From NCBI GenBank assembly GCA_017549805.1, contig JAFYNJ010000014.1, positions 1 through 33,163 on the forward strand: a stretch of 33,163 nucleotides of DNA. The letters run 5' to 3'. Below the pieces are notes generated by a model that searched no databases, was not told where the DNA came from, and saw only the letters and a program-made list of their open reading frames with translations. This document shows positions 13,749-31,043 of this stretch, one piece after another (positions within the stretch are counted from its first letter, which is position 1; each line of letters begins with the position of its first letter). Source of the DNA: Bacteroidales bacterium. Its GTDB lineage: Bacteria; Bacteroidota; Bacteroidia; Bacteroidales; F082. The position numbers were made by a program, and so were the translations under genes.

Positions 13749-13755
13749 TCTTATG

Positions 13756-14488: not shown

Positions 14489-14986
14489 TTAGTGGATGCC
14501 GAAGAGGGCGCCAAAGCCCAAGGTGCAGAGCACGCCTACGATGATGCCGGCCAGCGCTACGCCGCCCACCACGGCAAGAATGCTTTTCTTGAAGTCCATG
14601 TTGAGAAAACTGGCTGCCAGGGTGCCCGTCCAGGCGCCGGTGCCGGGCAACGGGATGCCAACGAATAGCAACAGCGCAACGTAGAGCCCGCGACCTGCTT
14701 TGGCTTGCAGTTTCTCGCCGCCTTTTTCACCTTTGTTGAGGCACCAGGTGAAGAACCGGCCGATGTATTTCTTGTCCTTGCCCCATTCCAGCACGCGGCG
14801 GGCAAAGAAGAAGATGAATGGTACAGGCAGCATGTTGCCGATGGCAATGATGATGTATGCCCACACCAGGTTGAAGTCGGCGGGATTGTCGAGGGCGGCT
14901 TTGATGCCGTAGGCCACGGGGATGGCGCCGCGGAGCTCGACCAAGGGGATCATTGATATTAGAAATACGTATATATAGTTTTTCAT
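14489..14986 (-). CDS. COG2426-type small multidrug-export membrane protein
   Basis: This 165-residue integral membrane protein resembles Sm_multidrug_ex (COG2426). It begins with a hydrophobic helix (YIYVFLISMIPLVELRGAIP, with the family's ELRGAIP motif), then IIIAIGNMLPVPFIFFFAR, VALLLFVGIPLPGTGAWTG (the conserved PLPGTGAW motif) and a terminal glycine-rich helix. The family's transport function is only putative. It is 16 bp upstream of the aroE TTG start and probably in the same transcript as aroE. Confidence 0.82.
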   Translation of the reverse strand: MKNYIYVFLISMIPLVELRGAIPVAYGIKAALDNPADFNLVWAYIIIAIGNMLPVPFIFFFARRVLEWGKDKKYIGRFFTWCLNKGEKGGEKLQAKAGRGLYVALLLFVGIPLPGTGAWTGTLAASFLNMDFKKSILAVVGGVALAGIIVGVLCTLGFGALFGIH

Positions 14987-14994
14987 CAGTGGTC

Positions 14995-15029
14995 AGTTTG
15001 AAGTTTTCAGTTTTCAGTTCTCAGTTATC
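14995..15029. repeat. Heptanucleotide tandem repeat (5 x AGTTTTC)
   Basis: The 7-bp units are AGTTTGA, AGTTTTC, AGTTTTC, AGTTCTC and AGTTATC. On the minus strand the unit GAAAACT contains TGA in one frame, and it supplies the last codons and the stop codon of the TPR gene (15014-15016). Confidence 0.8.
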
Positions 15030-16810: not shown

Positions 16811-17416
16811 TTAATTAAACGCTGTTCTATTCTGTATCGACCTCCCCAAAGTAATCTCATCCACATACTCCAATGTGTCGCCGACGGCGATGCCTTTGGC
16901 GATGACAGTGACTTTGCCTTTGAAGTCTTTCAATTGTCTGTAAATGTAGAAGTTGGTGGTGTCGCCTTCAATGGTTGCTGGAAGTGCGAGAATGATCTCT
17001 CGGATGTCTTCGGTTTGGACGCGTTGAACGAGTTCCTCGATCTTCAAGTCCTTGGGCGCGATGCCTTCGATGGGACTGATGACACCGCCTAACACATGGT
17101 AGAGTCCGTTGTAGGCTGCCGTGTGCTCAATGGCCAACACATCGCGCATGTCGGCCACTACGCACAGCGTGTTCTCATCACGACGGGGATTGGAGCAGAT
17201 GGAGCAGATTTTGGTGTCGGAGATATTATAGCACCGCTCGCAGAGCATGATATTGTGTTTCATCTTGAGCAAAGCGTCGGCAAGTTGCTCTGTCTGAACA
17301 TTATCCTCGTTGAGCAGATGAAGCGCCAGTCGTAAAGCGGTCTTCTTGCCGATACCGGGCAACTTCGAGAGGGCCTCGACTGCGTTTTCCAGTAATATGC
17401 TTGAGTATTCTGCCAT
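16811..17416 (-). CDS. recR: Recombination mediator RecR
   Basis: This 201-residue protein acts with RecO/RecF to load RecA at gaps. It has an N-terminal helix-hairpin-helix (ALSKLPGIGKKTALRLALHLL), a C4 zinc finger with C59, C62, C71 and C74, a Toprim domain (LCVVADMRDVLAIE, GLYHVLGGVISPIEGI), and a Walker-B-like C-terminal region ending in LGRSIQNRTAF. The start is the ATG at 17416, where RecR homology begins (MAEYSS); an in-frame upstream extension to 17524 runs through promoter sequence and is rejected. It is divergent from the sugar dehydrogenase gene. Confidence 0.93.
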   Translation of the reverse strand: MAEYSSILLENAVEALSKLPGIGKKTALRLALHLLNEDNVQTEQLADALLKMKHNIMLCERCYNISDTKICSICSNPRRDENTLCVVADMRDVLAIEHTAAYNGLYHVLGGVISPIEGIAPKDLKIEELVQRVQTEDIREIILALPATIEGDTTNFYIYRQLKDFKGKVTVIAKGIAVGDTLEYVDEITLGRSIQNRTAFN

Positions 17417-17422
17417 GGCTTG

Positions 17423-17430
17423 CAAAAATA
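17423..17430 (-). promoter_or_regulatory. -7 element for recR
   Basis: Minus-strand TATTTTTG ends only 6 bp before the recR ATG, so a transcript starting about 7 nt downstream would be leaderless or nearly so. The match is exact but spacing makes the call tentative. Confidence 0.45.
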
Positions 17431-17472
17431 GGAAATACTTATTAATTATCTTTGAGGTATCAAAAAAAAACC

Positions 17473-17480
17473 TAAATTTG
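17473..17480 (+). promoter_or_regulatory. -7 element at head of polysaccharide locus
   Basis: TAAATTTG matches TAnnTTTG, with TTTG at 17451-17454 upstream (18-bp spacing, slightly short of the usual 19-21). It would start transcription near 17487, just before the ATG at 17499, and is the likely promoter for the polysaccharide operon. Confidence 0.55.
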
Positions 17481-17498
17481 CAAATTAACCCAATTTGG

Positions 17499-18800
17499 AT
17501 GATTATGGACTTTTGCAAAAACATTGATGAGACAAAGATCTGTGTAATAGGTCTTGGCTATGTGGGTCTCCCTCTGGCCAGATTGTTTTCAACAAAATAT
17601 GAGACCGTCGGTTTCGACATGAATCAATCTCGCGTGGATGCCTTGATGACAGGTCATGATGCTACTCTTGAGGTAAGTGACGAACTGCTTCAGGATGCCA
17701 TCCAAAACCACGGCTTCCGCTGTACCACCAACCTTGATGAAATCAAACAATGCAACTTCTATGTTGTCGCTGTGCCTACCCCTGTCGACAGTGACAATCG
17801 TCCTGACCTGAAACCGTTGTGGGGAGCCAGCGAGACCGTTGGCAAGGTCATTTCGAAAGGCGACGTGGTAGTGTATGAGAGCACCGTCTATCCCGGCGTT
17901 ACGGAGGAGGAATGTCTCCCGGTGGTGGAACGTGTCAGTGGATTGAAATTCAATGTCGATTTCTATGCTGGCTACAGTCCTGAGCGCATTAACCCTGGTG
18001 ACAAACTGCATACGGTAGAAAAAATCAAGAAGGTGACGTCAGGCTCCACGCCTGAGATTGCCGATTATGTGGATGCCATTTACAATAGTGTCCTTATCAA
18101 TGGTACCCATAAAGCCCCGAGCATCAAGGTGGCTGAAGCATCCAAGATCATCGAGAATTCACAGCGCGACGTCAACATCGCCTTCATGAACGAGCTGGCC
18201 AAGATCTTCAATGCCATGGGTATCGACACCCACGACGTGATCGATGCCGCTTCCTCCAAGTGGAACTTCATCAAGCTGAGTCCCGGCTTGGTGGGCGGGC
18301 ACTGCATCAGCGTGGATCCCTACTACTTGATCCAAAAGGCTCAGGTGTATGGCGTCCTACCTCGGATTATGCATGCCTCAAGACGTTTGAACGACGGCAT
18401 GGGTGCCTACGTGGCCAACCAGACCATTAAATGCATGAACAAAAAAGGCGTGATGGTGAAAAACGCGAGAATTCTTATCCTTGGCATCACCTTCAAAGAG
18501 AACTGTCCTGACATCCGTAACACCAAAGTGGTGGACATTTACCATACTTTGAGAGAATACACACCGAATATCACGGTACTTGATCCTTGGGCCAATTCCA
18601 ATCATGTGCTCAAAGAATACGGCATCGTCGTCAACTCCCAACTGCCAACTGCCAACTGCCAACTGTTTGACGCAGTCATCTTGGCTGTTGCCCATAAGGA
18701 ATTCCTCGACATGGATGTGAAAACCTTGGTTAGGGAAGGTGGCGTCATTTACGATGTGAAAGGTATTCTTCCAAGAGAGATTGTCGATGGAAGACTGTAG
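17499..18800 (+). CDS. TviB/WbpO-type UDP-N-acetylhexosamine 6-dehydrogenase
   Basis: Nucleotide-sugar dehydrogenase of 433 residues that oxidises C6 of a UDP-hexose (most likely UDP-GlcNAc/GalNAc) to the uronic acid with 2 NAD+. The N-terminal Rossmann motif is ICVIGLGYVGLPLARLF. The catalytic Cys269 lies in GLVGGHCISVDPYYL, the form found in TviB/WbpO/CapL enzymes rather than in short UDP-glucose dehydrogenases. The C-terminal domain has GITFKENCPDIRNTKVVD. The ATG at 17499 (or 17505) is chosen since homology begins there and promoter elements lie just upstream; a longer in-frame extension would overlap recR. The stretch SQLPTANCQL (about residues 378-389) is encoded by four CCAACTG heptamers and has no counterpart that I know in the family. 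First gene of the polysaccharide locus. Confidence 0.88.
   Translation: MIMDFCKNIDETKICVIGLGYVGLPLARLFSTKYETVGFDMNQSRVDALMTGHDATLEVSDELLQDAIQNHGFRCTTNLDEIKQCNFYVVAVPTPVDSDNRPDLKPLWGASETVGKVISKGDVVVYESTVYPGVTEEECLPVVERVSGLKFNVDFYAGYSPERINPGDKLHTVEKIKKVTSGSTPEIADYVDAIYNSVLINGTHKAPSIKVAEASKIIENSQRDVNIAFMNELAKIFNAMGIDTHDVIDAASSKWNFIKLSPGLVGGHCISVDPYYLIQKAQVYGVLPRIMHASRRLNDGMGAYVANQTIKCMNKKGVMVKNARILILGITFKENCPDIRNTKVVDIYHTLREYTPNITVLDPWANSNHVLKEYGIVVNSQLPTANCQLFDAVILAVAHKEFLDMDVKTLVREGGVIYDVKGILPREIVDGRL
18638..18665. repeat. Heptanucleotide tandem repeat inside sugar dehydrogenase (4 x CCAACTG)
   Basis: Four perfect 7-bp units follow a degenerate TCAACTC unit (18631-18637). The unit is stop-free on this strand and encodes cyclic PTANCQL in any frame. 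It lies in the C-terminal nucleotide-binding domain just before FDAVILAVAH. Confidence 0.9.
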
Positions 18801-18836
18801 TGTACCGCACCACGATGAACGGAAAACAAAAATGAG

Positions 18837-20768
18837 ATGCGCATGAGTAGGTTGAACAAATACTTTCAGCAATACCTGAGTACAAAGGTTATCTTTGCGA
18901 TTGACCTTGTGCTGTCGGTGTTGGCTTCGGCAGTAGTGATGCTGTCCTTGGTCTTTTTCGCCAAAACAGGTTCTGATTACTATAGAGGGATGTTCTCCCT
19001 TTGGTGGATGACTAGCAGTATTGTCGGCACGGTGGTTGGCATGCTGGTGTTCAAAAGCTACAATGTGGTGGTCCGTCACATGACTTTGCCGGATATTATC
19101 CATTATATCCTGGTTTTGTTGGCCAAAGTAGTTGTAATCGGGATCGTGGTGGGTATTGCTAAGAAAATCAATTCTAGTATTGGCATTGCGCTTGTGTACG
19201 ATTTTTTGTTATCCTTGTTTTTCTGGATCTGTGTCCGTCTTTTGATGTTCTTTGTGTATGATCTATACAAGAAGAAATTCAAGGAACTTAGCGACCGTCA
19301 GCGAGTACTAGTCTTCAGCACTTCCGATAAATCGGCCGCTGTCGTAACTCGTTTGGAGAACTCTCCACATTATGATGTGGTTGGCTTTATTTCTCGTGAC
19401 GATAATAGCAAGAACCTGCGTATCAACGACCTGCCCGTGTTTGTGTGTCATACCGATAAACAGGTGGAAAAGGTCCTTGACCAGCTTTCGACGCGCGCCA
19501 TCCTGTTTTCGAGCGAAGCCGATGTGATGCGCGAAAACACGGATCTGGTGGAATACTGCAACCGAAACAATGTCAAAACGCTGATCATACCTACTATTGA
19601 TGAACTGGAGACGAACCAAAGGATGCGTGACCGTGTGCGTGAGGTGAAGATAGAAGACCTTCTCGGACGCCAGGAAATCAAAATCTCGATGGACGAAATC
19701 AAAGCCAACTTCAATGGCAAGGTGGTAATGGTCACTGGCGCTGCAGGATCCATCGGTTCGGAGCTTTGTCGCCAGTTGGCTACCTTTGGCATTAAGAAGT
19801 TGGTGCTGTTCGACAATGCAGAGACACCCATGCATAACCTGAGATTGGAGTTGGAACAACGCTTCCCCAAACTTGATTTTGTGCCGATTATCGGCGATGT
19901 TCGTCATAAGGATCGTCTCGACTTCGCTTTCCGTGAATGGCATCCTCAAGTGGTGTTTCATGCCGCTGCCTATAAGCATGTGCCATTGATGGAGGAGAAT
20001 CCTTGTGAAGCTGTTTTGGTCAATCTCCATGGCTCCTGCAATGTGGCTGACAAGTGTTTGGAGTATGGAACCGAGATGATGGTGATGATCTCTACCGACA
20101 AGGCGGTGAATCCCACCAACATCATGGGATGTTCCAAGCGTCTGGCGGAGATCTACGTGCAGTCGCTGGGGTTGGCGGTCGAGCAGGGCAAGGTGCCGGG
20201 CAAAACCAAGTTTGTTACTACCCGTTTCGGCAATGTATTGGGTTCCAATGGATCTGTCATCCCTCGTTTCCGTGAACAGATTGCCAATGGCGGTCCTGTC
20301 ACAGTGACCCATCCCGAAATCACACGTTTCTTCATGACCATCCCCGAAGCTTGCCGTCTGGTGATGGAAGCTGCCATTTTGAGTACAGGTAACCAGATCT
20401 TTGTGTTTGATATGGGTGAATCTATCAAGATTGATACCTTGGCCCGTCGCATGATTACCCTTGCCGGTATGAAGGTGGGAGAGGATATCGAGATCCAATA
20501 CACGGGCTTGCGTCCGGGCGAGAAACTGTATGAGGAAGTGCTGTCTAACAAGGAGAACACATTGCCTACATCGCATGACCGTATCCGAATTGCCAAGGTT
20601 CGTGAATATGAATATGACCAGATGAAGGTTGTGTTGGAGGAATTGGTCGATCTTGCCCACAAGGTGAAGATTCCTGAGATGGTTATCCTGATGAAGAAGA
20701 CTGTGCCGGAGTTCATTAGCAAGAACAGTAGGTTTGAGGAATACGATAGGCTGAAAGCTGAGAGCTGA
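18837..20768 (+). CDS. CapD/WbpM-type membrane nucleotide-sugar 4,6-dehydratase
   Basis: This 643-residue protein has four N-terminal transmembrane helices (about residues 14-140), then a CoA-binding-like regulatory domain (residues about 150-270) and a C-terminal extended SDR domain. The SDR has GAAGSIG at 301-307, VFHAAAYKHVPLMEENP, and the STDKAVNPTNIMGCSKR motif, where Met-x3-Lys replaces the usual Tyr-x3-Lys, as in long FlaA1/WbpM dehydratases. It should convert UDP-GlcNAc to UDP-4-keto-6-deoxy-GlcNAc at the inner membrane, giving precursors such as QuiNAc or FucNAc. It lies 36 bp after the dehydrogenase. The ATG at 18837 is used; the terminal residues KAES and the stop come from a GCTGAAA heptamer repeat. 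Confidence 0.9.
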   Translation: MRMSRLNKYFQQYLSTKVIFAIDLVLSVLASAVVMLSLVFFAKTGSDYYRGMFSLWWMTSSIVGTVVGMLVFKSYNVVVRHMTLPDIIHYILVLLAKVVVIGIVVGIAKKINSSIGIALVYDFLLSLFFWICVRLLMFFVYDLYKKKFKELSDRQRVLVFSTSDKSAAVVTRLENSPHYDVVGFISRDDNSKNLRINDLPVFVCHTDKQVEKVLDQLSTRAILFSSEADVMRENTDLVEYCNRNNVKTLIIPTIDELETNQRMRDRVREVKIEDLLGRQEIKISMDEIKANFNGKVVMVTGAAGSIGSELCRQLATFGIKKLVLFDNAETPMHNLRLELEQRFPKLDFVPIIGDVRHKDRLDFAFREWHPQVVFHAAAYKHVPLMEENPCEAVLVNLHGSCNVADKCLEYGTEMMVMISTDKAVNPTNIMGCSKRLAEIYVQSLGLAVEQGKVPGKTKFVTTRFGNVLGSNGSVIPRFREQIANGGPVTVTHPEITRFFMTIPEACRLVMEAAILSTGNQIFVFDMGESIKIDTLARRMITLAGMKVGEDIEIQYTGLRPGEKLYEEVLSNKENTLPTSHDRIRIAKVREYEYDQMKVVLEELVDLAHKVKIPEMVILMKKTVPEFISKNSRFEEYDRLKAES

Positions 20769-20770
20769 AC
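20750..20770. repeat. Heptanucleotide tandem repeat (3 x GCTGAAA)
   Basis: The units are GCTGAAA, GCTGAGA and GCTGAAC. The unit contains TGA in one frame, and it provides the stop codon of the dehydratase gene (20766-20768). The following 50 bp before the PnuC gene hold short GAAGC-rich repeats and no gene. Confidence 0.7.
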
Positions 20771-20818
20771 GGCGAAGCCCTCAACGAAGCGAAGCGAGTT
20801 AAAGCGGAGAACGTAAAA

Positions 20819-21400
20819 ATGGAGTTCCTGAGCAATCATTGGCTGGATATTACGACGACGGCATTGGGGTTGGCCTATATCCTGTTGGAATACAAGGCCA
20901 GCGTTTGGATGTGGGTAGTGGGTTTTTTCATGCAATCGCTGGGCATCGTTCTTTACTATCAGAAAGGGCTGTATGCCGATTGTGGCATGGAGTTCTATTA
21001 TTTGGCCATGACGGTTTATGGATTTATTGCATGGATGCGCCATAGGCAGAAGGTAAAGGATCTGCCCATCCGTCACATGCCGAAGAAAACGGCCTTGTCA
21101 TGGGTGCTTGTCGCTACAGTTGTCTGGGCACTCATTTACTTTGTGTTGTCGCGTTTCACCAACAGCACGGTTCCCGTACTTGATGCCTTTACCACCGCCT
21201 TGAGCATTGTGGGTATTTGGGCCTTGGCCAGAAAATATTTGGAGCAGTGGTTCGTTTGGATTGTGGTGGATGTCGTGACCTGCGGCCTGTATTTCTACAA
21301 GGATATCCCCTTCAAGGCCAGCTTATATGGGTTGTATGTCATCATCGCCATCTTTGGCTATTTTAAGTGGAAATCAATTATGAAAGAAGAAACGATATGA
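20819..21400 (+). CDS. PnuC-family vitamin/nucleoside transporter
   Basis: This 193-residue membrane protein with about seven predicted helices belongs to the PnuC family of facilitators for nicotinamide riboside and related vitamins. Family features seen are [16 protein letters not shown] near the N terminus, the aromatic-rich [19 protein letters not shown], and the C-terminal signature [19 protein letters not shown]. In Bacteroides a PnuC homologue (PnuT) imports thiamin; that is possible here because a TPP-regulated outer-membrane receptor is in the same window, but this gene has no riboswitch. Its stop codon overlaps the rmlA start (ATGA), an unexpected coupling to sugar-nucleotide synthesis. 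Confidence 0.85.
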
Positions 21401-22314
21401 AAGGAATTGTATTGGCAGGTGGTTCGGGGACGCGTTTGTACCCAATTACGAAAGGCGTAAGCAAACAGTTGCTTCCCATCTATGACAAGCCCATGGTCTA
21501 TTATCCCATCTCGGCTTTGATGTTGGCTGGGATTCGCGACATTCTCGTTATCTCTACCCCATACGACTTGCCAGGCTTCAAGCGTTTGCTGGGCGATGGC
21601 TCCGACTATGGCGTGCATTTCGAGTATGCCGAACAGCCTTCGCCTGATGGGCTGGCTCAGGCCTTCATCATCGGTGAGCAGTTCATCGGCGACGATTGTG
21701 CCTGCTTGGTGCTGGGCGACAACATCTTCCACGGATCGGGCTTTACGAGCTTGTTGAGACATGCCGTTGAAGATGCCGAAAAGAACCACAAGGCCACGGT
21801 GTTTGGCTATTGGGTGTCGGATCCCGAGCGTTATGGCGTGGCGGAGTTCGACAAGCAGGGCAACTGCCTGAGCATCGAGGAGAAGCCCAAGGAACCCAAG
21901 AGCAACTATGCCGTGGTGGGTCTCTATTTCTATCCCAACAAGGTGGTTGACATTGCCAAGACCATCAAGCCGTCGGCCCGTGGCGAATTGGAGATTACCA
22001 CGGTGAACCAGGAGTTTCTGAAGGCAGGTGAGCTGAAAGTCCAGACCTTGGGACGGGGCTTTGCTTGGCTCGATACGGGGACCCACGACAGCTTGGCCGA
22101 AGCCTCCACCTTCGTGGAAGTCATTGAGAAGCGGCAAGGCCTGAAGATCGCTTGCTTGGAAGGCATCGCCTATCGTCATGGATGGATTAGCGAGGAGAAG
22201 ATGCGCGAGTTGGCCAAACCCATGCTGAAAAACCAATATGGCCAGTATCTCCTTCGGGTGATCGATGAGATGAAGGAGCAAATCAATTCGATAACCTTTG
22301 AAAACACAAAATAA
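21397..22314 (+). CDS. rmlA: Glucose-1-phosphate thymidylyltransferase
   Basis: This 305-residue enzyme makes dTDP-glucose from glucose-1-phosphate and dTTP. The N-terminal nucleotidyltransferase motif [20 protein letters not shown] and KPMVYYP are canonical. The metal-binding [10 protein letters not shown], the [19 protein letters not shown] segment and [16 protein letters not shown] are also present. The ATG at 21397 is chosen because homology starts at MKGIVLAGG; it overlaps the pnuC stop codon, suggesting translational coupling. The stop overlaps the rmlB start by one base (TAATG). The first two steps of dTDP-deoxysugar synthesis are therefore encoded together. Confidence 0.95.
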
Positions 22315-23477
22315 TGGGAAGAACCATCATCATTACGGGAGGAGCGGGCTTTATAGGCAGCCATGTCGTTCGCCTTTTTGTGAACAAATATCCCGATTAC
22401 AAGATCATCAATCTCGATAAGCTGACCTATGCCGGCAACCTTGCCAACCTTCAGGATATTGAGGACATGCCCAACTATCGCTTTGTCAAGATGGATATCT
22501 GCGATTTTGAAGGTGTATACCAGTTGATGCAAGAAGAACATGTTGACGGCATCATCCACCTTGCCGCTGAGAGCCATGTGGATCGTAGTATCAAGGATCC
22601 GTTCACCTTCGCCCAAACCAACGTGATGGGAACGTTGAGCTTGTTGCAGGCCGCGAAACTTTATTGGGAGTCGACGAATTTCGTCATTGCGAGGGAGGAA
22701 CGACCGAAGCAATCCATCCCTTGCCGTTTCTATCATATCAGCACCGACGAAGTCTATGGTGCCTTGGAGATGACCGATCCTGAGGGTATCGAGCCGCCAT
22801 TTACTACGAAGGCCAGCAGCGGCAAGCATCATCTGGCTTATGGAAGCAAGTTCTTCACGGAGGATCTGAAATACCAGCCCCACAGCCCTTATAGCGCCGC
22901 CAAGGCCAGCAGCGACCATTTTGTGCGTGCTTTCCATGACACGTACGGCTTGCCGACCGTTGTGACGAATTGTTCAAACAACTACGGTCCCTACCAGTTT
23001 CCTGAGAAGCTGATCCCGCTGTTCATCAACAATATCCGCCATCGCAAGCCGTTGCCGGTGTATGGCAAAGGCGAGAATGTGAGGGATTGGCTCTATGTGG
23101 AAGACCATGCCCGTGCCATCGACTTGATTTTCCATGAGGGCAAGATAGGGGAGACCTACAACATCGGCGGCTTCAACGAGTGGAAAAACATTGACCTGAT
23201 CAAGGTGCTGATTAACACGGTGGACAGGCTGCTGGGCCGTCCCGAGGGTGCCGACATGGACTTGATCACCTATGTTACCGACCGTGCCGGCCACGACCTG
23301 CGCTATGCCATCGACTCTTCCAAGCTTCAGATGGAACTCGGTTGGGAGCCCAGTTTGCAGTTCGAGGAAGGCATCGAGAAGACCGTCCTTTGGTATCTCG
23401 AAAACCAAGAATGGCTGGATAACGTCACCAGTGGCGATTATCAGAAGTATTATGAAAGCTATTACGGAAAACTCTAA
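22314..23477 (+). CDS. rmlB: dTDP-glucose 4,6-dehydratase with embedded palindromic repeat
   Basis: This 387-residue extended SDR converts dTDP-glucose to dTDP-4-keto-6-deoxyglucose. It has NAD-binding GGAGFIGSHVVRLF, LAAESHVDRSI, the catalytic HISTDEVYG (Asp-Glu pair), YSAAKASSDHFVRA (Tyr-x3-Lys) and NNYGPYQFPEKLIPL. Residues 123-136 (FVIAREERPKQSIP), between LYWEST and FYHISTDEVYG, are the in-frame translation of a copy of the CGTCATTGCGAG-type intergenic repeat; the surrounding sequence is normal. The insertion is probably in a surface loop, so activity may persist. rmlC and rmlD are not in the window. Confidence 0.95.
   Translation: MGRTIIITGGAGFIGSHVVRLFVNKYPDYKIINLDKLTYAGNLANLQDIEDMPNYRFVKMDICDFEGVYQLMQEEHVDGIIHLAAESHVDRSIKDPFTFAQTNVMGTLSLLQAAKLYWESTNFVIAREERPKQSIPCRFYHISTDEVYGALEMTDPEGIEPPFTTKASSGKHHLAYGSKFFTEDLKYQPHSPYSAAKASSDHFVRAFHDTYGLPTVVTNCSNNYGPYQFPEKLIPLFINNIRHRKPLPVYGKGENVRDWLYVEDHARAIDLIFHEGKIGETYNIGGFNEWKNIDLIKVLINTVDRLLGRPEGADMDLITYVTDRAGHDLRYAIDSSKLQMELGWEPSLQFEEGIEKTVLWYLENQEWLDNVTSGDYQKYYESYYGKL
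22682..22720. repeat. Palindromic-repeat family copy inside rmlB
   Basis: Starts CGTCATTGCGAG and ends GCAATCCA with GAAC/GACC spacer, the same arm layout as the intergenic repeat at 11204-11245. It is translated in frame as part of RmlB. Only one half of the larger inverted structure is present. Confidence 0.75.
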
Positions 23478-23499
23478 ATTCTTAATTCTAAATTCTAAT
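23472..23499. repeat. Heptanucleotide tandem repeat (4 x TTCTAAA)
   Basis: The 7-bp units are CTCTAAA, TTCTTAA, TTCTAAA and TTCTAAT. The unit contains TAA, and the first unit carries the rmlB stop codon (23475-23477). The repeat fills almost the entire 27-bp gap to the next gene. Confidence 0.8.
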
Positions 23500-23504
23500 T
23501 TTTC

Positions 23505-24755
23505 ATGAAGATAGCAGTAGCTGGAACGGGTTATGTCGGCCTGAGCATCGCCACCTTGTTGTCGCAGCGTTATGATGTGACTGCGGTTGATATTGTGCCG
23601 GAAAGGGTGGATAAGGTCAATAGGAGAGAGTCGCCTATCAAGGATGAATTGATTGAGGAGTATTTTGCCCAAAAGGAATTGCGTCTTCAAGCCACGCTGG
23701 ATGCCGAACAAGGTTACGGCGACGCAGATTTCGTGGTTATCGCGGCGCCTACCAACTACGACAGTGTGAAGAATTTCTTTGATACCACCGCAGTGGAGGA
23801 GGTGATTAACACGGTGATGCGCTACAATCCCCATGCCGTGATGGTAATCAAATCGACGGTGCCGGTTGGCTATACCGAGTCGATCAGGCAGAAGACGGGA
23901 TGCCGCAATATCCTCTTTGCACCGGAGTTTCTGCGCGAAAGCAAGGCGCTTTACGACAATTTGTATCCGTCGCGCATCATCATTGGTTACGAACAAGGCA
24001 ATGAAGAACTAAAGAATAAGGCAAATCAATTTGCACTTATGCTACAGCAATGTGCATTGAAAACCGATATTCCCGTGTTGTTTATGGGTACTACTGAGGC
24101 GGAAGCGGTGAAACTGTTTGCCAACACTTATTTGGCGTTGCGTGTAAGTTATTTCAACGAATTGGATACATACGCCGAGATGAAAGGGCTTGACACCCGA
24201 TCGATTATCGAAGGGGTGTGTCTGGATCCCCGTATCGGAAGCTATTACAACAATCCCAGTTTTGGCTATGGCGGCTATTGTTTGCCCAAGGATACCAAGC
24301 AGCTTTTGGCCAACTATGCTGATGTGCCGCAAAACATGATGAGTGCCATCGTGGAGAGCAACCGCACCCGCAAGGACTTCATCGCCGACCAGGTCCTGAA
24401 AATGGCTGGTTATTACGCCTATTCCGAGAACAACCAATACGATTCAAAACTTCCAACTGCCAACTACCAACTGCCAACTATTGGCGTTTATCGCCTGACC
24501 ATGAAGTCGAACAGCGACAACTTCCGCCAGAGCAGCATCCAGGGAGTGATGAAGCGCGTGAAGGCAAAGGGAGCCAAGGTCATCATCTATGAGCCGACTT
24601 TGCCTGATGGGACCACCTTCTTCGGCAGCTTGGTAGTCAACGATTTGGAACGCTTCAAGACCATGAGCCAAGCCATCATCGCCAACCGTTACGACAGTGT
24701 CCTCGACGACGTGAAGGATAAGGTTTACACCCGTGATATTTTCAAGAGGGATTAA
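23505..24755 (+). CDS. ugd: UDP-glucose 6-dehydrogenase with embedded heptamer repeat
   Basis: This 416-residue short-type UDP-glucose dehydrogenase oxidises UDP-glucose to UDP-glucuronic acid. It opens [19 protein letters not shown] and has [30 protein letters not shown] (substrate-binding), the catalytic Cys259 in [15 protein letters not shown] and the C-terminal VIIYEP segment. The family usually has about 390 residues; the excess is partly the segment [12 protein letters not shown] (about residues 315-327), encoded by a 28-bp heptamer repeat between the helical linker and the C-terminal domain. It closes the first half of the polysaccharide locus and is followed by a terminator-like hairpin. 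Confidence 0.93.
24453..24480. repeat. Heptanucleotide tandem repeat inside ugd (4 x CCAACTG/A)
   Basis: Units alternate CCAACTG, CCAACTA, CCAACTG, CCAACTA. They are the same unit family as in the other dehydrogenase gene at 18638-18665, but at a different place in the protein. Stop-free on the coding strand. Confidence 0.9.
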
Positions 24756-24794
24756 GCAAGCCTTTCCATGGTGTTTATTGGGCAAAAAAACTTG

Positions 24795-24826
24795 TTCTTT
24801 TCTTTGAAAAGAAAAGGTTTTTTTTC
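24795..24826 (+). terminator. Intrinsic terminator-like hairpin with T tract
   Basis: A perfect 8-bp stem TTCTTTTC/GAAAAGAA with loop TTT (24795-24813) is followed by AAGG and an eight-T run. It lies 40 bp after the ugd stop and could divide the locus into two transcription units. The remaining gap to 24964 holds a weak TATTTTCG -7-like motif at 24828-24835 and short hairpins, with no gene. Confidence 0.6.
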
Positions 24827-24964
24827 TTATTTTCGCAAATTATATTTTGGATTGCTAAAGCAACGGATGGCGTTCATCCATAACTTTGTGTCAATCAACG
24901 CCTTGTCGCCACACCCTGTGACTGACGGGGCGAAGCTGTGAAATAAACAAATTTTCTTTGAATT

Positions 24965-26062
24965 ATGGGATATAAAGAAAAGTTTGAAGATAAGTTGTTC
25001 GACTTTTGCCGTTGGACACACAAAGTATCGGGGATGAAAAAAAGGATTAATGATTTCAAGAAAAAGCCTTTTTCAAATGCCTTGACAAAAGAACAAGAAA
25101 AAGAAGTTTTGTCGTTCTACAAACCATACGCTAAGCCTTCTTTGGTTTTTCATCGTTATTTTACTGGGGTTTCGGGTACCTTTTATCCCAATTATATCCC
25201 TCAAGACTTATATGTTGGTTATATCGACCCCTATTTCAATGACATCATTGCAGCCAAGTATTATGATAACAAGACTAACTATGACTCCTTGTTTCATGGT
25301 ATTCCACAGCCAAAGACCTTGTTGAAAAGGGTCAATGGCATTTGGACAGATGGTGACAACCGGCCTGTTTTTGGCGAAAACTGCCAACAGCCGGATGATG
25401 TCCGGTTATCCGTGAACACAGGTTGTTTTGTAAAAGAAGCCCAAAAAACGGCTGGTGGGAGCGGGGTTACATACATTCCTCAAGGAGAGTTCTCGTTTAA
25501 GAAAGTGTTGGATATTGCAAACAAATATGATACGGACATTATTGTACAGGAAGAGCTTGTCCAACATGAGGCTATTGCGCGTTTGCATAAGGATTCGTTG
25601 AATACGCTTCGCATTTATTCCGTCTTGGAAAAAGACGGCAATGCGACCATCTATTCGGCGGTGGTGAGAATGGGTGCAGGCAATGCTAAGCTTGACAATT
25701 ATAGCGCCGGTGGATTGACTTGTGGTATTCAACCCAATGGTAGATTGAGGAAATACGGCTATAATAAGAAGTTTGAGAAGATGGAATGCCACCCGACTTC
25801 AAAGGTTGTCTTTTCCGAATATGAGATTCCTAATTATCAAGGTGCCGTTGATTTGATCAAAAAGGCACACCCAATGGTTGCACATTTTAGATCCATCGCA
25901 TGGGATATAGCCATTGGGCAAGATGGGACTCCTGTTTTGATTGAAGCTAATCTTTGCCGAGGTGGTATTGATTCCTTGCAGCTTAACAATGGTCCGCTGT
26001 ATGGTAAAGATACTATCAAGATTCTCGATGAAGTCTTCGGACACAAAAAAGCAAATCAATAA
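24965..26062 (+). CDS. Sugar-transfer-associated ATP-grasp protein 1
   Basis: This 365-residue protein resembles the sugar-transfer-associated ATP-grasp domain (PF14397), found in polysaccharide loci and presumed to ligate a carboxylate to an amine using ATP. The ATP-binding region includes FVKEAQKTAGGSGVTYIPQ (glycine-rich lid), then IIVQEELVQHEAI (adenine contact) and SLNTLRIYSVLE. The metal-binding end is WDIAIGQDGTPVLIEANLC (Asp, Glu, Asn), followed by LQLNNGPLYG. The N-terminal 100 residues are basic and helical. It is 12 bp before a second member of the family. Substrate is unknown; uronic acid amidation is my inference from the neighbouring dehydrogenases. Confidence 0.8.
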   Translation: MGYKEKFEDKLFDFCRWTHKVSGMKKRINDFKKKPFSNALTKEQEKEVLSFYKPYAKPSLVFHRYFTGVSGTFYPNYIPQDLYVGYIDPYFNDIIAAKYYDNKTNYDSLFHGIPQPKTLLKRVNGIWTDGDNRPVFGENCQQPDDVRLSVNTGCFVKEAQKTAGGSGVTYIPQGEFSFKKVLDIANKYDTDIIVQEELVQHEAIARLHKDSLNTLRIYSVLEKDGNATIYSAVVRMGAGNAKLDNYSAGGLTCGIQPNGRLRKYGYNKKFEKMECHPTSKVVFSEYEIPNYQGAVDLIKKAHPMVAHFRSIAWDIAIGQDGTPVLIEANLCRGGIDSLQLNNGPLYGKDTIKILDEVFGHKKANQ

Positions 26063-26074
26063 TAATTCAAGAAT

Positions 26075-27256
26075 ATGACAGACTACGATCTCTTACTTGA
26101 AAAAATCCGGGCGATTGGTATGGACTATCGTTGGGCCGGAATGTTTGTAAAGAAACTCCGTGATGATGAAAATGCGTTTCCCGTTGATGATTTGGAAAAG
26201 AAAAAGTGGGCCTTGGAACGCGGTTTCTATCCTGGCCGCATTGAGTTGTACGGGTTGACGGAAGACAATTATCGCGATTATGTTCCGGATTTCCAGTATT
26301 TCATGCTGCATCCAATGAACAATCACTTTTTAAAGTGGCTTGATAAAACCACATTGAAATATGTACTGAACAGTAATGGATGTGAGGATACCATGCCAAA
26401 ATACTATGTGTATGTTGAGAATGACTTGTGTGGCGGCCGTTTTACCTATCTGATGGATTGTCCAACCGACATTCCACACGACAAGGATTTCCTTTGGAAT
26501 CTGCTAAAGGAAAAGCGCATCCTTGCCATGAAGCCCAATTCAGGTACCAGCGGAGGGCTTGGCTTTATCAAGATGGAGTTGCGTGACAATGGCATTTATG
26601 AAAACAACAAACCTATCGACATGGCTCGTTTTGAAGAGATTCGTGACACCATGCGAAACTATATTGTCACAGAGTATTGCCATCAGCATCATGAGTTGGA
26701 GAAGGTTTGGCCCGACAGTGAATGCACGCTTCGCGTGATTATGTGCAAGGATCATACGGAAGACCGTTATGCGCTAACCACATGGTCTTGTGCTGTGTCA
26801 TACGCACGATTCGGTACCTCAATCAATGGAGGAGCAAGTAATTTGTCTTCTGGTGGTGTTGGAGTAGGATTCGATTTTGAAACCGGAAAATACAAGGATT
26901 TCTGTATTCGTTACAAGCGCTTCACTCCCGATGGGAAATGGTTGTTGGACAAGCATCCTGACACAGGAATCGTTTGGAAAGACAATGCACTTCCCAATTG
27001 GTCATTGGTGCGGAATAAGATCAACAAGCTTTGCCAACATGTTTCATCGTTGGATTACATGGGACTGGATATCATCATTACCGAAGATGGAATGAAGTTG
27101 TGTGAGATCAATTCGCATCCAGCAATCGATTATGAGCAGGTGATGTGTGGTCCCGTATTGAAGAATGAAAAGGTCAGAGCGTTCTTCGAGCACAAAGGTT
27201 TGCGCAAGTGGGATGGAAACTTACTATATCAAGCCTACATGGAAAGTCAAAAGTGA
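26075..27256 (+). CDS. Sugar-transfer-associated ATP-grasp protein 2
   Basis: This 393-residue protein has the same domain type as its upstream neighbour but is highly diverged, so it is not a recent duplicate. The glycine-rich ATP-binding loop is clear in ILAMKPNSGTSGGLGFIKME (about residues 149-168). It is followed by NYIVTEYCHQH, CTLRVIMCKD, and the metal-binding end MGLDIIITEDGMKLCEINSHP, then YEQVMCGPVL, paralleling the D-x-L-Q...GP ending of the first protein. No signal peptide or membrane helix is seen, so it is cytoplasmic. The pair could add two different groups, or act sequentially, on the repeat unit. Confidence 0.78.
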   Translation: MTDYDLLLEKIRAIGMDYRWAGMFVKKLRDDENAFPVDDLEKKKWALERGFYPGRIELYGLTEDNYRDYVPDFQYFMLHPMNNHFLKWLDKTTLKYVLNSNGCEDTMPKYYVYVENDLCGGRFTYLMDCPTDIPHDKDFLWNLLKEKRILAMKPNSGTSGGLGFIKMELRDNGIYENNKPIDMARFEEIRDTMRNYIVTEYCHQHHELEKVWPDSECTLRVIMCKDHTEDRYALTTWSCAVSYARFGTSINGGASNLSSGGVGVGFDFETGKYKDFCIRYKRFTPDGKWLLDKHPDTGIVWKDNALPNWSLVRNKINKLCQHVSSLDYMGLDIIITEDGMKLCEINSHPAIDYEQVMCGPVLKNEKVRAFFEHKGLRKWDGNLLYQAYMESQK

Positions 27257-27282
27257 TTTATTGGATTGATGAAACATTGGTT

Positions 27283-27879
27283 ATGTACAAGCATTTCTTT
27301 AAACGAGTATTGGATTTTTTAATCTCTTTGATCGCCATTATTTGCCTTAGTCCTTTTCTTTTGGTAATGATGCTTTTACTTCATTTTGCCAACAAAGGGG
27401 CGGGCGTGTTTTTCTTACAGGATCGTCCTGGCAAAGACGCAAAGATCTTTAATGTCATTAAATTCAAGAGCATGACGGATGAAACGGATGAGAATGGCGT
27501 TCCGTTGCCGAATGATCAGCGTATTACCAAGATTGGAAAATTCATGCGTAAGTTCTCCATCGATGAATTGCCACAGCTTTTCAATGTGTTGAAAGGCGAT
27601 ATGTCATTGATAGGTCCTCGTCCTTTGTTGACAAGATACTTGTTGCTTTATTCACCCGAACAGGCAAGGCGTCATGAAGTACGTCCTGGTCTTACCGGGT
27701 GGGCTCAAGTCCATGGTAGGAACAACATTACTTGGAAAGAGAAATTTGAATTGGATATTTGGTATGTTGACCATTGTACCTTGTGGACGGACATCAAAGT
27801 GATTTTTATGACGATCAAAAATGTATTGTCTGGTAAAGATGTGAGTGTTATGAGCGGTAGTTTTGATGGAACTAATTAA
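27283..27879 (+). CDS. Small phosphoglycosyl transferase (PglC/WcaJ-type sugar transferase)
   Basis: This 198-residue monotopic phosphoglycosyl transferase (PF02397) transfers a sugar-1-phosphate from a UDP-sugar to undecaprenyl phosphate, starting repeat-unit assembly. A single N-terminal membrane helix (LDFLISLIAIICLSPFLLVMM) is followed by VIKFKSMTDE, the catalytic Asp-Glu dyad in FSIDELPQLFNVLKGDMSLIGPRPLL, and RPGLTGWAQVHGRN. The ATG at 27283 is chosen because the membrane helix and homology start just after it; a longer frame would overlap the upstream ATP-grasp gene. The likely donor is the CapD-type product, which is inference. It is the only sugar-transferring enzyme in the locus. 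Confidence 0.92.
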   Translation: MYKHFFKRVLDFLISLIAIICLSPFLLVMMLLLHFANKGAGVFFLQDRPGKDAKIFNVIKFKSMTDETDENGVPLPNDQRITKIGKFMRKFSIDELPQLFNVLKGDMSLIGPRPLLTRYLLLYSPEQARRHEVRPGLTGWAQVHGRNNITWKEKFELDIWYVDHCTLWTDIKVIFMTIKNVLSGKDVSVMSGSFDGTN

Positions 27880-27902
27880 GTGCCGTATTTAAAAGAGTAA
27901 TA

Positions 27903-29165
27903 ATGGAAGAACAGGATTTGATCATATATGGTAGCGAGAACAGGTCTCTTGGGGACAAGTTTTGTGCTTTGGCTCTCGCATTGGCGCCTCTTTTACAACA
28001 TTATAAGGGACTTGTCCAAAATGCTGGTTTTACAATATTGCTTCTTATCACTCCCGTTTTGTTATTGCACACATACAAGAAGTTGCATGTTGGCGTAGTT
28101 GATAGAAGGAGTTTCATTGCCATAATTCCTTTAATTATCTTCTATTTTTATACCATCATTATTCGAGATTTCAATTTTATGCGACTTGGGTATGTGCTGC
28201 TTCTCTCATGGATTTTCATTTGTGTTTCGAATGGTAGTGTAAATATCTCATATTTCTTTAAATATGCCACTAAGATCGCTGTATTAGCGACGGTTGCCAT
28301 TATTATACAATATATAGCACATTATTTGGTGGGTAGAACCATTGATTTTCGTCCTTTGTCATTATTGGTTAGCCAGGATGTGATTTGGGTTAGAACTGCT
28401 GAAAATTATGGCGCTGCTGGATTCATGTATCGTCCTTCTGGCTTTTTCCTTGAACCTTCGCATTTCTTTTTGTATTCATTCCCGATAATCTGTATATCGT
28501 TGCTCTCGGTAAAGAGAAACAGGAATAATATTCGTACTGCATTGTTTTTGTCCTTGGGCTTATTGCTGACCACTTCGGGAATGGGTATTGCTGTAGTTTT
28601 GGGTTTATGGATGCTGTATTATTTAATCTACAGAAAACTATCCAACTACAATGTTAGGATAGGAAAAGTGATTAATGTAAATAATGTGGCTCTTGTAATC
28701 GTGTTTATAATAATCGTTTTTGTCGCCTATCTTTGGATTCCGTTTTTTCATAATAGTATTCAGAGAGTGTTTACTGAAGACGAAACATCAAATGCTATTG
28801 AAGGAAGGGTTCGACTTGTGAGTGATTATGTTAGAGGTATTTCTGGAAAGGCTGTTTGGGTTGGTACTCCTATGAATGAATTGGACGACCTTGGTTTTAA
28901 TATTCCTGGATTGTTTGCTACCTATATAAAATGGGGTATATTTGGCTTGATTTTCAGTTACTGGTTCTATATCCAAGGCTTGTTTAAACTAAAAGGACCT
29001 TATTTTTGGCTTTCGTTTATTATCATCATTATTTCCTATTTTACGGCACATACGCATGGTACTTTTTATATGCTTTACTTTGTCCTGTTTTTAATGAATG
29101 GCTATTACGAAAGCAGTTGGTATCGGGTTGCTGCACCTCGAAGTTCTGCGATAGGTTTTTGTTGA
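27903..29165 (+). CDS. Wzy-like polysaccharide polymerase/ligase
   Basis: This 420-residue protein has about ten transmembrane helices and one large periplasmic loop near the C-terminal third (residues about 285-345: VFTEDETSNAIEGRVRLVSD and on). That layout is typical of O-antigen polymerases (Wzy) and ligases (WaaL), which show little sequence conservation. The motif RPSGFFLEPSHFFLY and the EGR in the loop fit the Wzy_C-like pattern. Base composition is visibly AT-richer than in flanking genes, as is usual for polymerase genes exchanged between strains. It should join lipid-linked repeat units in the periplasm. Confidence 0.75.
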   Translation: MEEQDLIIYGSENRSLGDKFCALALALAPLLQHYKGLVQNAGFTILLLITPVLLLHTYKKLHVGVVDRRSFIAIIPLIIFYFYTIIIRDFNFMRLGYVLLLSWIFICVSNGSVNISYFFKYATKIAVLATVAIIIQYIAHYLVGRTIDFRPLSLLVSQDVIWVRTAENYGAAGFMYRPSGFFLEPSHFFLYSFPIICISLLSVKRNRNNIRTALFLSLGLLLTTSGMGIAVVLGLWMLYYLIYRKLSNYNVRIGKVINVNNVALVIVFIIIVFVAYLWIPFFHNSIQRVFTEDETSNAIEGRVRLVSDYVRGISGKAVWVGTPMNELDDLGFNIPGLFATYIKWGIFGLIFSYWFYIQGLFKLKGPYFWLSFIIIIISYFTAHTHGTFYMLYFVLFLMNGYYESSWYRVAAPRSSAIGFC

Positions 29166-29204
29166 AGTTTTGTTCGTGTGTTTTTGTATAAACTGATTTG
29201 AAAT

Positions 29205-29789
29205 ATGAAGAATTCTAAAAGATTGTTTTATTCCCTTTGGTCATGTCTCTATCAAAGTCCGAAAAAGCGTACTGAGTTTTTTCGAAGGAAACATGTTTTC
29301 GGTCATTTAGGAGAAAAATGTTCAATTCAAGATCGCATGTTGCCGCTTTATCCTAACCTCATCTATCTGCATAATAATGTTAGGATGGCATCAAATGTTG
29401 TATTTGTTACGCATGATATCATTCACATGATGCTTAATAATAGGGAGGGGGACGATAAGGGTTATATAGAACGAGTTGGTTGTATTGAAGTAATGGACAA
29501 TGTGTTCATTGGTACAGGAACCCATATCCTTTACGGTGTTAGAATTGGGACAAATGTTATTATTGGTTCGAATAGCTTGGTTAACAAGGATGTACCTGAC
29601 AATTCTGTTTATGCTGGGGTGCCTGCACGATATATTTGTAGTTTTGATGAGTATATGCGTAAAGCACGTTTGCAAACTGAACAATTCAAAGAACGGTATG
29701 GCGTTTCTAGACTGGGTGGTGTGGTAAGCGATGAATTGGCAGCGGTTATGTATGAGGATTTTTGTAAAAGCAGAGAAAGCAAGGAATAA
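29205..29789 (+). CDS. Hexapeptide-repeat acyltransferase
   Basis: This 194-residue left-handed beta-helix acyltransferase has a hexapeptide pattern from about residue 45 to 145 (NNVRMASNVVFVTHD, MDNVFIGTGTHILYGVRIG, TNVIIGSNSLVNKDVPDNSVYAGVPARYI). The His in FVTHDIIHMM is a candidate catalytic residue. It probably O-acetylates (or N-acylates) a sugar of the repeat unit, using acetyl-CoA. The C-terminal helix after 150 is a common oligomerisation tail. It follows the polymerase by 39 bp. Confidence 0.88.
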   Translation: MKNSKRLFYSLWSCLYQSPKKRTEFFRRKHVFGHLGEKCSIQDRMLPLYPNLIYLHNNVRMASNVVFVTHDIIHMMLNNREGDDKGYIERVGCIEVMDNVFIGTGTHILYGVRIGTNVIIGSNSLVNKDVPDNSVYAGVPARYICSFDEYMRKARLQTEQFKERYGVSRLGGVVSDELAAVMYEDFCKSRESKE

Positions 29790-29802
29790 ACCAGGGTAAT
29801 CT

Positions 29803-31029
29803 ATGAAATCGTTAGTAATCGCAGGCGGTGTGCCTCAAATAGAGTTGATCAAGCAACTCAAGGCTCGTGGAATTGAAACCTTGTTGGCGGACGGCAGTCC
29901 GAATGCCGTGGCCAGACCTTATTGTGACAAATTCTTTCATGTGGATGTCTTCGATATGGAAGCCATAAAAGATATTGCCGTTAAAGAAAAAGTGGATTTC
30001 CTCATCACCGTTTGTGCCGACCAAGTTTTGTTGGTGGTAGCGAAGGTGTCGGAAATGCTAGGGCTTCCTTGCTATATTGATTACGAGACTTGCCAAAATG
30101 TGTCTGATAAAATCCGCATGAAACGTATCTTCAAGGCACATGGTATTCCCACGACTGATTACGTTGAAACCGATAAACTTGATATGGGAGTGATAGGTAA
30201 ACTGAAGTTCCCCTTGGTGGTGAAGCCGGTGGATGCCTATAGTTCCAAAGGAGTGAGAAAAGCAGAGGATATCGAGGAATTGAAGCGTTATTACGAAGAA
30301 GCCCATCAAATCAGCCGCAGCGGTGGCGTGATTGTGGAGGAATTCTTTGCCGGTGAAGAGATCAGCGTGGATGCTTTTGTGGTGAATGGCAAAGCTCATG
30401 TGCTGAATGTTACCAATAGTGAGAAAGTGAAGGACAAAGACCGTTTTGTCATTTTCCGTGGTCGCTATCCCGTGAAAGCCTCAGAAGCTGTGCTGAAACA
30501 GATAGATGAAATTGCCCAAAAGATTGCCGACGGCTTCGGTTTGGTGAACGCTCCCTTGTTGATTCAGTTGCTGCATCATGGCGACGAAGTGTCGGTGTTG
30601 GAGTTTTGCGCCCGTACGGGTGGCAATATGAAATACTTACTTATCAAATATTCTACGGGTGTGGACGTGATCGGCGCAACTATTGACATTACCCTTGGAA
30701 AGGATCCTGATTTGAGCAAGAAATGCAAGAGTTACAATATTGTGGTGAATGATTTCATCTATTGCCAACCTGGTGTTTTCGATCATTTTGAAGGATTCGA
30801 GGAATTGGAGAAACAGGGCTTGATCAACGAATTCCACCCTGTAAGGATCAAAGGAACGGAAATGCGTGGCGTGACCAGCAGCAGCGACCGTGTTGCCGGC
30901 ATGAACATCGTTGCGGATTCCATTGAGCAATACAATGAGAAGCTCCAACAAATCAATGCCTCGGTTAAGGTGATCGACAAAGAAGGGAAAGATATCATGC
31001 GGCATGATTTGTTGCCTGATTTGATTTAA
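29803..31029 (+). CDS. ATP-grasp carboxylate-amine ligase
   Basis: This 408-residue protein has an N-terminal pre-ATP-grasp domain (MKSLVIAGGVPQIELIKQLK, LADGSPNAVARPYCDKFFHV), a central ATP-grasp (FPLVVKPVDAYSSKGVRKA, GGVIVEEFFAGEEISVDAFV), and the metal-binding SVLEFCARTGGN. It belongs to the carbamoyl-phosphate-synthase-like/PurK/BacD group of ligases that form amide or peptide bonds via acyl phosphates, and differs from the two PF14397-type ATP-grasp proteins upstream. It is 13 bp from the acyltransferase and 14 bp from the next gene. Third ATP-grasp enzyme in the locus. Confidence 0.82.
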   Translation: MKSLVIAGGVPQIELIKQLKARGIETLLADGSPNAVARPYCDKFFHVDVFDMEAIKDIAVKEKVDFLITVCADQVLLVVAKVSEMLGLPCYIDYETCQNVSDKIRMKRIFKAHGIPTTDYVETDKLDMGVIGKLKFPLVVKPVDAYSSKGVRKAEDIEELKRYYEEAHQISRSGGVIVEEFFAGEEISVDAFVVNGKAHVLNVTNSEKVKDKDRFVIFRGRYPVKASEAVLKQIDEIAQKIADGFGLVNAPLLIQLLHHGDEVSVLEFCARTGGNMKYLLIKYSTGVDVIGATIDITLGKDPDLSKKCKSYNIVVNDFIYCQPGVFDHFEGFEELEKQGLINEFHPVRIKGTEMRGVTSSSDRVAGMNIVADSIEQYNEKLQQINASVKVIDKEGKDIMRHDLLPDLI

Positions 31030-31043
31030 CCAATCATTAAGTG

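Follow-up and report, generated by a model that had tools for sequence, protein, structure and literature searches.

How could a cell-surface glycan be built from a locus that encodes several ATP-grasp ligases and no recognizable glycosyltransferase? The question is raised by contig C15 (JAFYNJ010000014.1) of GCA_017549805.1 (G000), the genome of a gut Bacteroidales bacterium; the contig is analysed here over its complete length of 33,163 bases (the window). A first-pass annotation of the window had described a polysaccharide locus with three ATP-grasp ligases and two uronate-forming dehydrogenases, and had proposed that uronic acid carboxyls are amidated. We judge the locus to be real and unusual, a variation on lipid-linked glycan assembly and not a proven new category. 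Our favoured reading, held with about even confidence, is a lipid-linked (Wzx/Wzy-type) surface-glycan locus that has few glycosyltransferases, if any, and leaves much of the structure to ATP-grasp ligases.

The glycan locus extends past the window onto contig C28. The last 72 bases of C15 (33092..33163) are exactly the first 72 bases of C28, and a single contig of a close relative, G113, carries both halves in nearly the same gene order; the locus is therefore taken to continue there. So joined, it spans approximately 34 kb; its genes include six for ATP-grasp proteins and one each for a phosphoglycosyl transferase, a Wzy-like protein and a flippase. On C15 the glycan genes are all on the + strand, from the start of a TviB-like dehydrogenase at 17496 to the end of ATP-grasp 3 at 31029, and an exported protein follows:

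17496..18800, + strand: TviB-like nucleotide-sugar 6-dehydrogenase (UDP-GlcNAc to UDP-GlcNAcA type); NF011729 521.9 bits, under the equivalog cut-off of 592, and TIGR03026 385.5 bits, over 189.8; 89% identity in G113
18837..20768, + strand: CapD/PglF-type membrane UDP-HexNAc 4,6-dehydratase; PF02719 385.7 bits, and the PseB model 188.7 bits, under its cut-off
20819..21400, + strand: PnuC nicotinamide riboside transporter, probably a passenger; PF04973, and TIGR01528 over cut-off
21391..22314, + strand: RmlA glucose-1-phosphate thymidylyltransferase; TIGR01207 489.8 bits, over the cut-off of 360.65
22314..23477, + strand: RmlB dTDP-glucose 4,6-dehydratase; TIGR01181 455.5 bits, over the cut-off of 365.1
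23505..24755, + strand: Ugd-like UDP-glucose 6-dehydrogenase; NF011631 543.8 bits, under 757, and TIGR03026 299.4 bits, over the subfamily cut-off
24965..26062, + strand: ATP-grasp 1 (PF14397, ATPgrasp_ST), 128.4 bits against a cut-off of 31.4; 86% identity in G113 and 51% in L047
26075..27256, + strand: ATP-grasp 2, a divergent PF14397 protein that serves as the module's conserved marker; 85.5 bits against the same cut-off of 31.4
27286..27879, + strand: small monotopic phosphoglycosyl transferase (priming enzyme); PF02397 (Bac_transf) 220.4 bits
27903..29165, + strand: putative Wzy/O-antigen-ligase-like multispanning membrane protein, so named from its homologues
29205..29789, + strand: left-handed beta-helix (hexapeptide) acyltransferase; PF00132 35.0 bits
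29803..31029, + strand: ATP-grasp 3 (L-amino-acid-ligase/PylC-like, ATP-grasp_4); PF13535 55.1 bits, PDB matches 4dim and 3vot; aligned in 10 loci
31041..33053, + strand: exported protein, a small PID-CTERM-motif protein (NF046080 18.9 bits, under the cut-off of 26) in frame with a lipoprotein-like protein

The gene order on C28 is:

AlaDH-like gene
unidentified gene
STAS-like gene
2602-4074: Wzx flippase; PF13440 308.3 bits
PF14397 gene
5395-6318: TupA-type ATP-grasp ligase; PF14305 143.8 bits
CapA; PF09587
PF14397 gene
TIM298 (L006:8733-9629), 298 residues, lacking any notable match in Pfam, in NCBIfam or among PDB sequences
C-C bond lyase; PF15617
aldo/keto reductase (AKR)
MmgE/PrpD protein (PrpD)
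Ppd, phosphonopyruvate-decarboxylase-like; 390.5 bits, over the cut-off of 312.5
exported protein of 435 residues
fumarase-like beta
fumarase-like alpha
16951-18228: LegC-like (DegT) aminotransferase; LegC model the best match, under cut-off

Family scans agreed with the first-pass placement of the two UDP-sugar 6-dehydrogenases, the CapD-type dehydratase, RmlA/RmlB, the phosphoglycosyl transferase and the acyltransferase. The Wzy-like polymerase is a soft assignment: the protein at 27903-29165 has no Pfam match of its own, and its homologue in G113 scores 25.1 bits with Wzy_C, under the cut-off of 31.7, such sub-threshold matches being seen in the G113 and L054 homologues only. Homologues of this protein are also present in L047, L052 and L054.

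No glycosyltransferase was found among the scanned genes of the full C15 and C28 locus, by family scans or with our own GT2 and GT4 hidden Markov models (HMMs), so that this first-pass claim stands even over approximately 34 kb; five proteins of the locus have no family over cut-off (27903-29165, 31041-33053, C28 1287-2180, TIM298 and the 435-residue protein). A genome-wide profile search placed no PF00534 or PF00535 match on C15. No Wza or Wzc was seen in the locus, as had been reported. Wzx, also reported missing, is absent from the window itself; immediately outside it, where a flippase together with glycosyltransferases would have told against the first-pass annotation, a flippase is present on C28 and glycosyltransferases are not, so that half of that contrary result came about. 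Set against what is expected of a Wzx/Wzy-dependent locus, a priming phosphoglycosyl transferase and Wzx (on C28) are there, and extending glycosyltransferases were not found.

The case for the favoured reading is largely comparative, and is built on ATP-grasp 2. This protein is rare, occurring in 1 of 393 genomes sampled across the order (G000 itself) and, by close match, in 3 of 99 genomes of the genus (G000, G113 and G112), with one further, distant match of 27%. A protein search of genome contigs gave 13 loci, in metagenome-assembled genomes (MAGs) labelled Bacteroidia/Bacteroidales, Clostridia or their subgroups; these include G113 and G112, and the addition of G000 makes 14. Identity to the window protein is 71–94% over 13 homologues, and pairwise identity among the 12 compared is 66–94% (66–83% between the two phyla). 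No copy was found in viral contigs, and the six records from a plasmid search are distant (at most 26.7% identity). The stretches read were more than 50 kb each for G000, G113 and G112, and at most 10 kb per side for the other 11 loci; contig ends truncate L050, L053 and L054 near the gene, L054 starting 111 bases before it.

A phosphoglycosyl transferase is present in 12 of the 14 loci, ATP-grasp 3 (at least 45% identity) in 11, a LegC-like aminotransferase in 10, a flippase match in nine, the window's Wzy-like protein in five and a PIG-L match in four, one of which (L049) was confirmed by Pfam; PIG-L is counted toward the amine reading because PIG-L deacetylases free amines. A uronate dehydrogenase (TviB/Ugd) occurs in three loci, all in one genus, where the aminotransferase is present as well, 11–26 kb from ATP-grasp 2. 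Across the 11 loci outside the genus, the LegC-like aminotransferase is matched in seven and TviB/Ugd in no locus, over the DNA read. For this reason, ligation of acids to the amines of a bacillosamine-like priming sugar appears more likely than uronate amidation for ATP-grasp 2 and 3. LegC was the best-matching model, under cut-off, for all six aminotransferases scanned. The extended locus in G000 has the corresponding pair of a 4,6-dehydratase (CapD, on C15) and a sugar aminotransferase (LegC-like DegT, on C28).

In the window, as in each of the 11 further loci with both, ATP-grasp and phosphoglycosyl transferase are encoded by separate genes. The priming enzymes split into groups that are 28–47% identical to one another, as against 66–94% for ATP-grasp 2. 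One slowly changing ligase has thus been paired repeatedly with differing priming enzymes, and this re-made pairing suggests that ATP-grasp 2 works during priming, on the primed sugar or close to it.

Arrangements free of glycosyltransferases are found beyond G000. In L047, from the Clostridia-labelled MAG RGIG7448, eight contiguous genes (5631-16049) encode, in order, a CapD-type dehydratase, a LegC-like aminotransferase, ATP-grasp 1, ATP-grasp 2, a phosphoglycosyl transferase, a Wzy-like protein, a flippase and ATP-grasp 3, with no glycosyltransferase among them. On the short contig L054, ATP-grasp 2 and 3 are accompanied by a phosphoglycosyl transferase, a Wzy-like protein, a flippase and a polysaccharide deacetylase, and a PrpD protein there shares 66% identity with its C28 counterpart. 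The G113 locus also yielded no glycosyltransferase; its genes were named by homology to G000 or by Pfam and our HMMs were silent over four stretches, a few flanking open reading frames (ORFs) lying outside the Pfam scan. With amide-forming enzymes in the place expected for sugar-linking ones, and with the ligase and priming-enzyme core recurring in Clostridia-labelled genomes, a little-described mode of surface-glycan assembly is indicated. Downstream of the L047 block (18910-21177) are two tandem proteins, the one a Wzy_C member according to Pfam, the other sharing 60% identity with it.

Within the genus, 24 genomes have a PF14397-type match to ATP-grasp 1, and 20 control windows were taken from 18 of them; G047, G051 and G094 are excluded from this set, and G000, G112 and G113 were studied separately. 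Eight of the 20 windows hold a C28-type flippase together with PF14397 genes, seven of the eight also with CapA. Our GT2 and GT4 HMMs were silent in 7 of the 20 windows and in 5 of these 8, counts that are provisional with such weak models. In the G129 stretches, no glycosyltransferase was found by our HMMs, or by Pfam on ten further proteins, three of them without a family. The genus seems to carry a variable locus, the variable genes being those for ATP-grasp and CapA-like proteins. The HMMs were built from 11 and 3 sequences, some taken from the scanned loci, where matches are partly circular, and they missed two likely GT4 genes recognized by eye in L056; except in G000, G113 and L047, a count of zero is to be read as provisional. 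The glycosyltransferase counts given for the ATP-grasp 2 loci are independent of these HMMs.

That the window encodes three ATP-grasp ligases was borne out by alignment. E327 and N329 of ATP-grasp 1 are conserved in 6 of 6 aligned PF14397 proteins, D332, E344 and N346 of ATP-grasp 2 in 14 of 14, and E267 and R271 of ATP-grasp 3 in 10 of 10; we take these positions to be the metal-ligand residues. The PF14397 profile check proposed for all three places ATP-grasp 1 and 2 over the cut-off and leaves ATP-grasp 3 without a match. By sequence, the nearest PDB chains to ATP-grasp 3 are 4dim (E 1.1e-18) and then 3vot (E 2.8e-18). None of the three matches the TupA family (PF14305). The predicted model of ATP-grasp 2 has a mean confidence (pLDDT) of 70.5, and its top Foldseek matches are ATP-grasp enzymes, RimK first (E 2.7e-6), with TM-scores by query of only 0.24–0.34 among the 50 matches listed; the comparison suffices for the fold, and not for a substrate. 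In L055, ATP-grasp 3 (11985-13214) is interrupted, forming two ORFs, so some copies of the core are not intact.

From the observed gene content, the contig join and the recurrence of the ligase and priming-enzyme core, the following route can be proposed. The CapD-type dehydratase and the LegC-like aminotransferase would generate a UDP-amino-6-deoxyhexosamine, and the phosphoglycosyl transferase would load this amino sugar onto undecaprenyl phosphate. Carboxylic or amino acids, turned into acyl phosphates by ATP-grasp 2, ATP-grasp 3 and others, would be coupled to the priming sugar at its free amine or amines. The gene set of L047 resembles the Neisseria route to a monosaccharide linked to undecaprenyl, in which the ATP grasp/phosphoglycosyl-transferase PglB2 is responsible for the glyceramido sugar (PMC11130364), and this precedent is the model for placing the acid on the amine that the aminotransferase would make. 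The flippase would then export the unit, and the Wzy/O-antigen-ligase-like protein would polymerize it or transfer it to protein or lipid. The uronic acids (TviB, Ugd) and the TupA-type ligase would be additions in this genus.

Several observations weigh against this reading. Glycosyltransferase matches lie nearby in 7 of the 14 ATP-grasp 2 loci (G112, L048, L049, L051, L052, L055 and L056), in G112 directly upstream of the gene, and the absence of glycosyltransferases is therefore not a property of the module. G000 itself has nine PF00534 and 15 PF00535 places on other contigs, whose products could serve this locus in trans. In L046, L049, L052 and L054 the aminotransferase is without a match, and L046 is an orphan ATP-grasp 2 without any partner; the CapD-type dehydratase has no match within the fetched G113 stretches. 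Distances for ATP-grasp 2 and 3 are only weakly correlated (Mantel r 0.37, p 0.037, n=11), and the value falls when two same-genus rows are removed (r 0.20, p 0.17, n=9). That the ATP-grasp part of Neisseria PglB2 itself performs the glycerate ligation is inferred from how the paper describing it is worded. The genome (33 contigs, 2.73 Mb) is estimated at 100% complete and 7.58% contaminated, and this contamination, together with Clostridia names taken from MAG records, makes misbinning conceivable. The substrates, the order of steps and the product of the proposed path are all ones that we infer. For ATP-grasp 2 and the phosphoglycosyl transferase, the distances gave r 0.21 (p 0.11, n=12). 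Inheritance of a single operon as a unit was considered and set aside, the distances of the three core genes agreeing weakly.

Three other explanations have to be weighed. In one, the ATP-grasp proteins would form amides at C6 of GlcA or GlcNAcA, linking the carboxyl there to amino acids or amino alcohols, an account of the locus that now looks improbable. It draws on the two uronate-forming dehydrogenases in the same operon, on the PF14305 match on C28 and on the uronamide system of the Campylobacter jejuni capsule, in which the TupA-like C-terminal domain of Cj1438 amidates GlcA with serinol phosphate or ethanolamine phosphate (PMC11800379). That system likewise has an ATP-grasp amide ligase acting on a surface glycan and a supply of UDP-uronate. 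There, however, the TupA-like domain is fused to a GT2 glycosyltransferase that needs the amide, whereas the window ligases are of PF14397 and amino-acid-ligase type, lack any TupA match and lie in a locus where no GT2 was found; and outside the genus, in the DNA read, ATP-grasp 2 occurs without a TviB/Ugd match. Carboxyl amidation, the leading idea of the first-pass annotation, thus loses that place, although with a TupA-family protein on C28, the ligase that it suits best, and the Cj1438 precedent it may hold for part of the system.

Another explanation overlaps with the favoured reading up to its final step: a single N-acylated amino sugar would be attached to protein or lipid, the Wzy-like protein would be an O-oligosaccharyltransferase and a glycosyltransferase would be unneeded. 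The Neisseria pgl route has roles for a dehydratase and an aminotransferase, and an end enzyme of this superfamily. The likeness to the monosaccharide steps of that route is part for part, extending to phosphoglycosyl transferase, ATP-grasp, flippase and Wzy-like end enzyme, and PglB2, responsible for a glyceramido sugar, is described as an ATP grasp/phosphoglycosyl-transferase (PMC11130364). The two functions are fused there, whereas here the ligases are separate and several, and the acid-making set, the uronate dehydrogenases, TupA and CapA are extra. The top NCBIfam model for the C28 flippase is an O-glycosylation flippase (286.9 bits, under its cut-off of 720), and an exported protein lies directly downstream in both G000 and G113. 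Polymerase and transferase are, however, indistinguishable here, the sole Pfam match of the homologues being a weak Wzy_C, and several ligases, CapA and TupA would fit a polymer better; on balance this explanation seems rather unlikely. Doubtful, though not remote, is an ordinary polysaccharide extended by trans-acting glycosyltransferases from other parts of the genome. Many of the glycosyltransferases on other contigs are on C14, which has six GT2 places and one GT4 place, and for this reason trans-acting enzymes are a possibility that the nearby matches in half of the ATP-grasp 2 loci also favour. Against it, C14, with Wza/Wzc-type export genes judged by eye from ORF starts, looks like a second, separate glycan system of its own, and the layout without glycosyltransferases recurs in G113 and L047, with none met in the G129 stretches either.

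With assembly on a primed amino sugar still the favoured reading, a bolder form of it can be stated, which we think unlikely as a whole: a surface polymer made largely without glycosyltransferases, with one primed amino sugar per unit, in which variable ATP-grasp sets (with CapA/TupA) create diversity by amide bonds, the part played by glycosyltransferases in normal O-antigen loci, using an undescribed acid from the TIM298, C-C lyase and fumarase-like set. If the favoured model is right, amide ligases, not glycosyltransferases, can carry much of the surface-glycan diversity in gut and rumen bacteria, with a bearing on phage receptors, host recognition and the prediction of glycan structures from genomes.

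PF14397, the 'sugar-transfer associated ATP-grasp' family, reportedly received its name in 2009 from Iyer and colleagues, on the basis of gene context. ATP-grasp 1 and 2 are members by score and lie within a glycan locus, whereas ATP-grasp 2 differs as a divergent, strongly conserved branch, usually accompanied by a phosphoglycosyl transferase and ATP-grasp 3. These ligases gain a small context from the eight-gene block of L047 and from an ATP-grasp 2 common to MAGs of two phyla. The chain that is the second-best PDB match of ATP-grasp 3, 3vot, is the L-amino acid ligase BL00235, which makes dipeptides; here, by contrast, the gene sits in a glycan operon. ATP-grasp genes in glycan loci are not new as such, since a clostridial glycan locus with glycosyltransferases includes an ATP-grasp ligase (PMC4000134). 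In the open-licence literature, no paper mentioning 'PF14397' or 'sugar-transfer associated ATP-grasp', and no tested reaction of a PF14397 ligase, was met; the titles and abstract openings on ATP-grasp with capsule, bacillosamine or polysaccharide do not describe this arrangement.

The second half of the locus may bear on the acid that is ligated. TIM298 occurs in 13 of 99 genomes of the genus at 94–100% identity, with a 93% identical copy in L052, and in 1 of 395 genomes sampled across the class (G000 itself). Its structure model is poor (pLDDT 48.1, with four near-identical rows). A C-C lyase lies within approximately 5 kb of TIM298 in all 13 (86–100% identical to that of the window genome in five, 52–54% in eight), a fumarase-like beta gene is nearby in 12, some ATP-grasp gene in 13 and an aminotransferase match in 10; the stretches are unequal, the shortest 14 kb and the longest over 60 kb, some stopping at contig ends, and the ATP-grasp matches are mostly of 21–37%. 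This ties the set to ATP-grasp ligation without revealing the acid. TIM298, the C-C lyase and the fumarase-like alpha and beta proteins, often with PrpD and sometimes with AKR and Ppd, probably make or tailor an acid. A phosphonate product was considered because of Ppd and is unlikely, or would need another route, since no PEP mutase in the genome passes the cut-off (single match of 21.5 bits, against 31.5).

Near the ligase core of three Clostridia-labelled loci is a gene for DctM, a TRAP transporter component (L047:17201-18562, L055:14311-15666 and L056:6184-7539). The copies are 69–77% identical to that of L047, and two have a LysR-like gene beside them, seen by eye; DctM could import an acid substrate. 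The exported 435-residue protein in the acid set (L006:14270-15577) has no family and, by eye, a CSGF cysteine-peptidase-like motif, and may act on extracytoplasmic amide bonds. Relatives differ in what separates the flippase from the AlaDH-like gene (L006:1287-2537, L041:871-1659 and L092:13583-15746): STAS-like genes, a polyvalent-protein kinase and a Panacea-domain protein occur there, and the interval may be an insertion hot spot.

Any association of the exported protein at 31041-33053 with the glycan is putative; its counterpart in G113 is formed by two overlapping ORFs (L040 17415-17759 and 17756-19405). A PID-CTERM/exosortase connection was set aside, its scores being under threshold only. 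The genes at both ends of C15 (155-1654 and 31041-33053) are related to one G113 protein (42% identity over 324 residues and 65% over 565, respectively), and such related proteins are a possible cause of the contig breaks.

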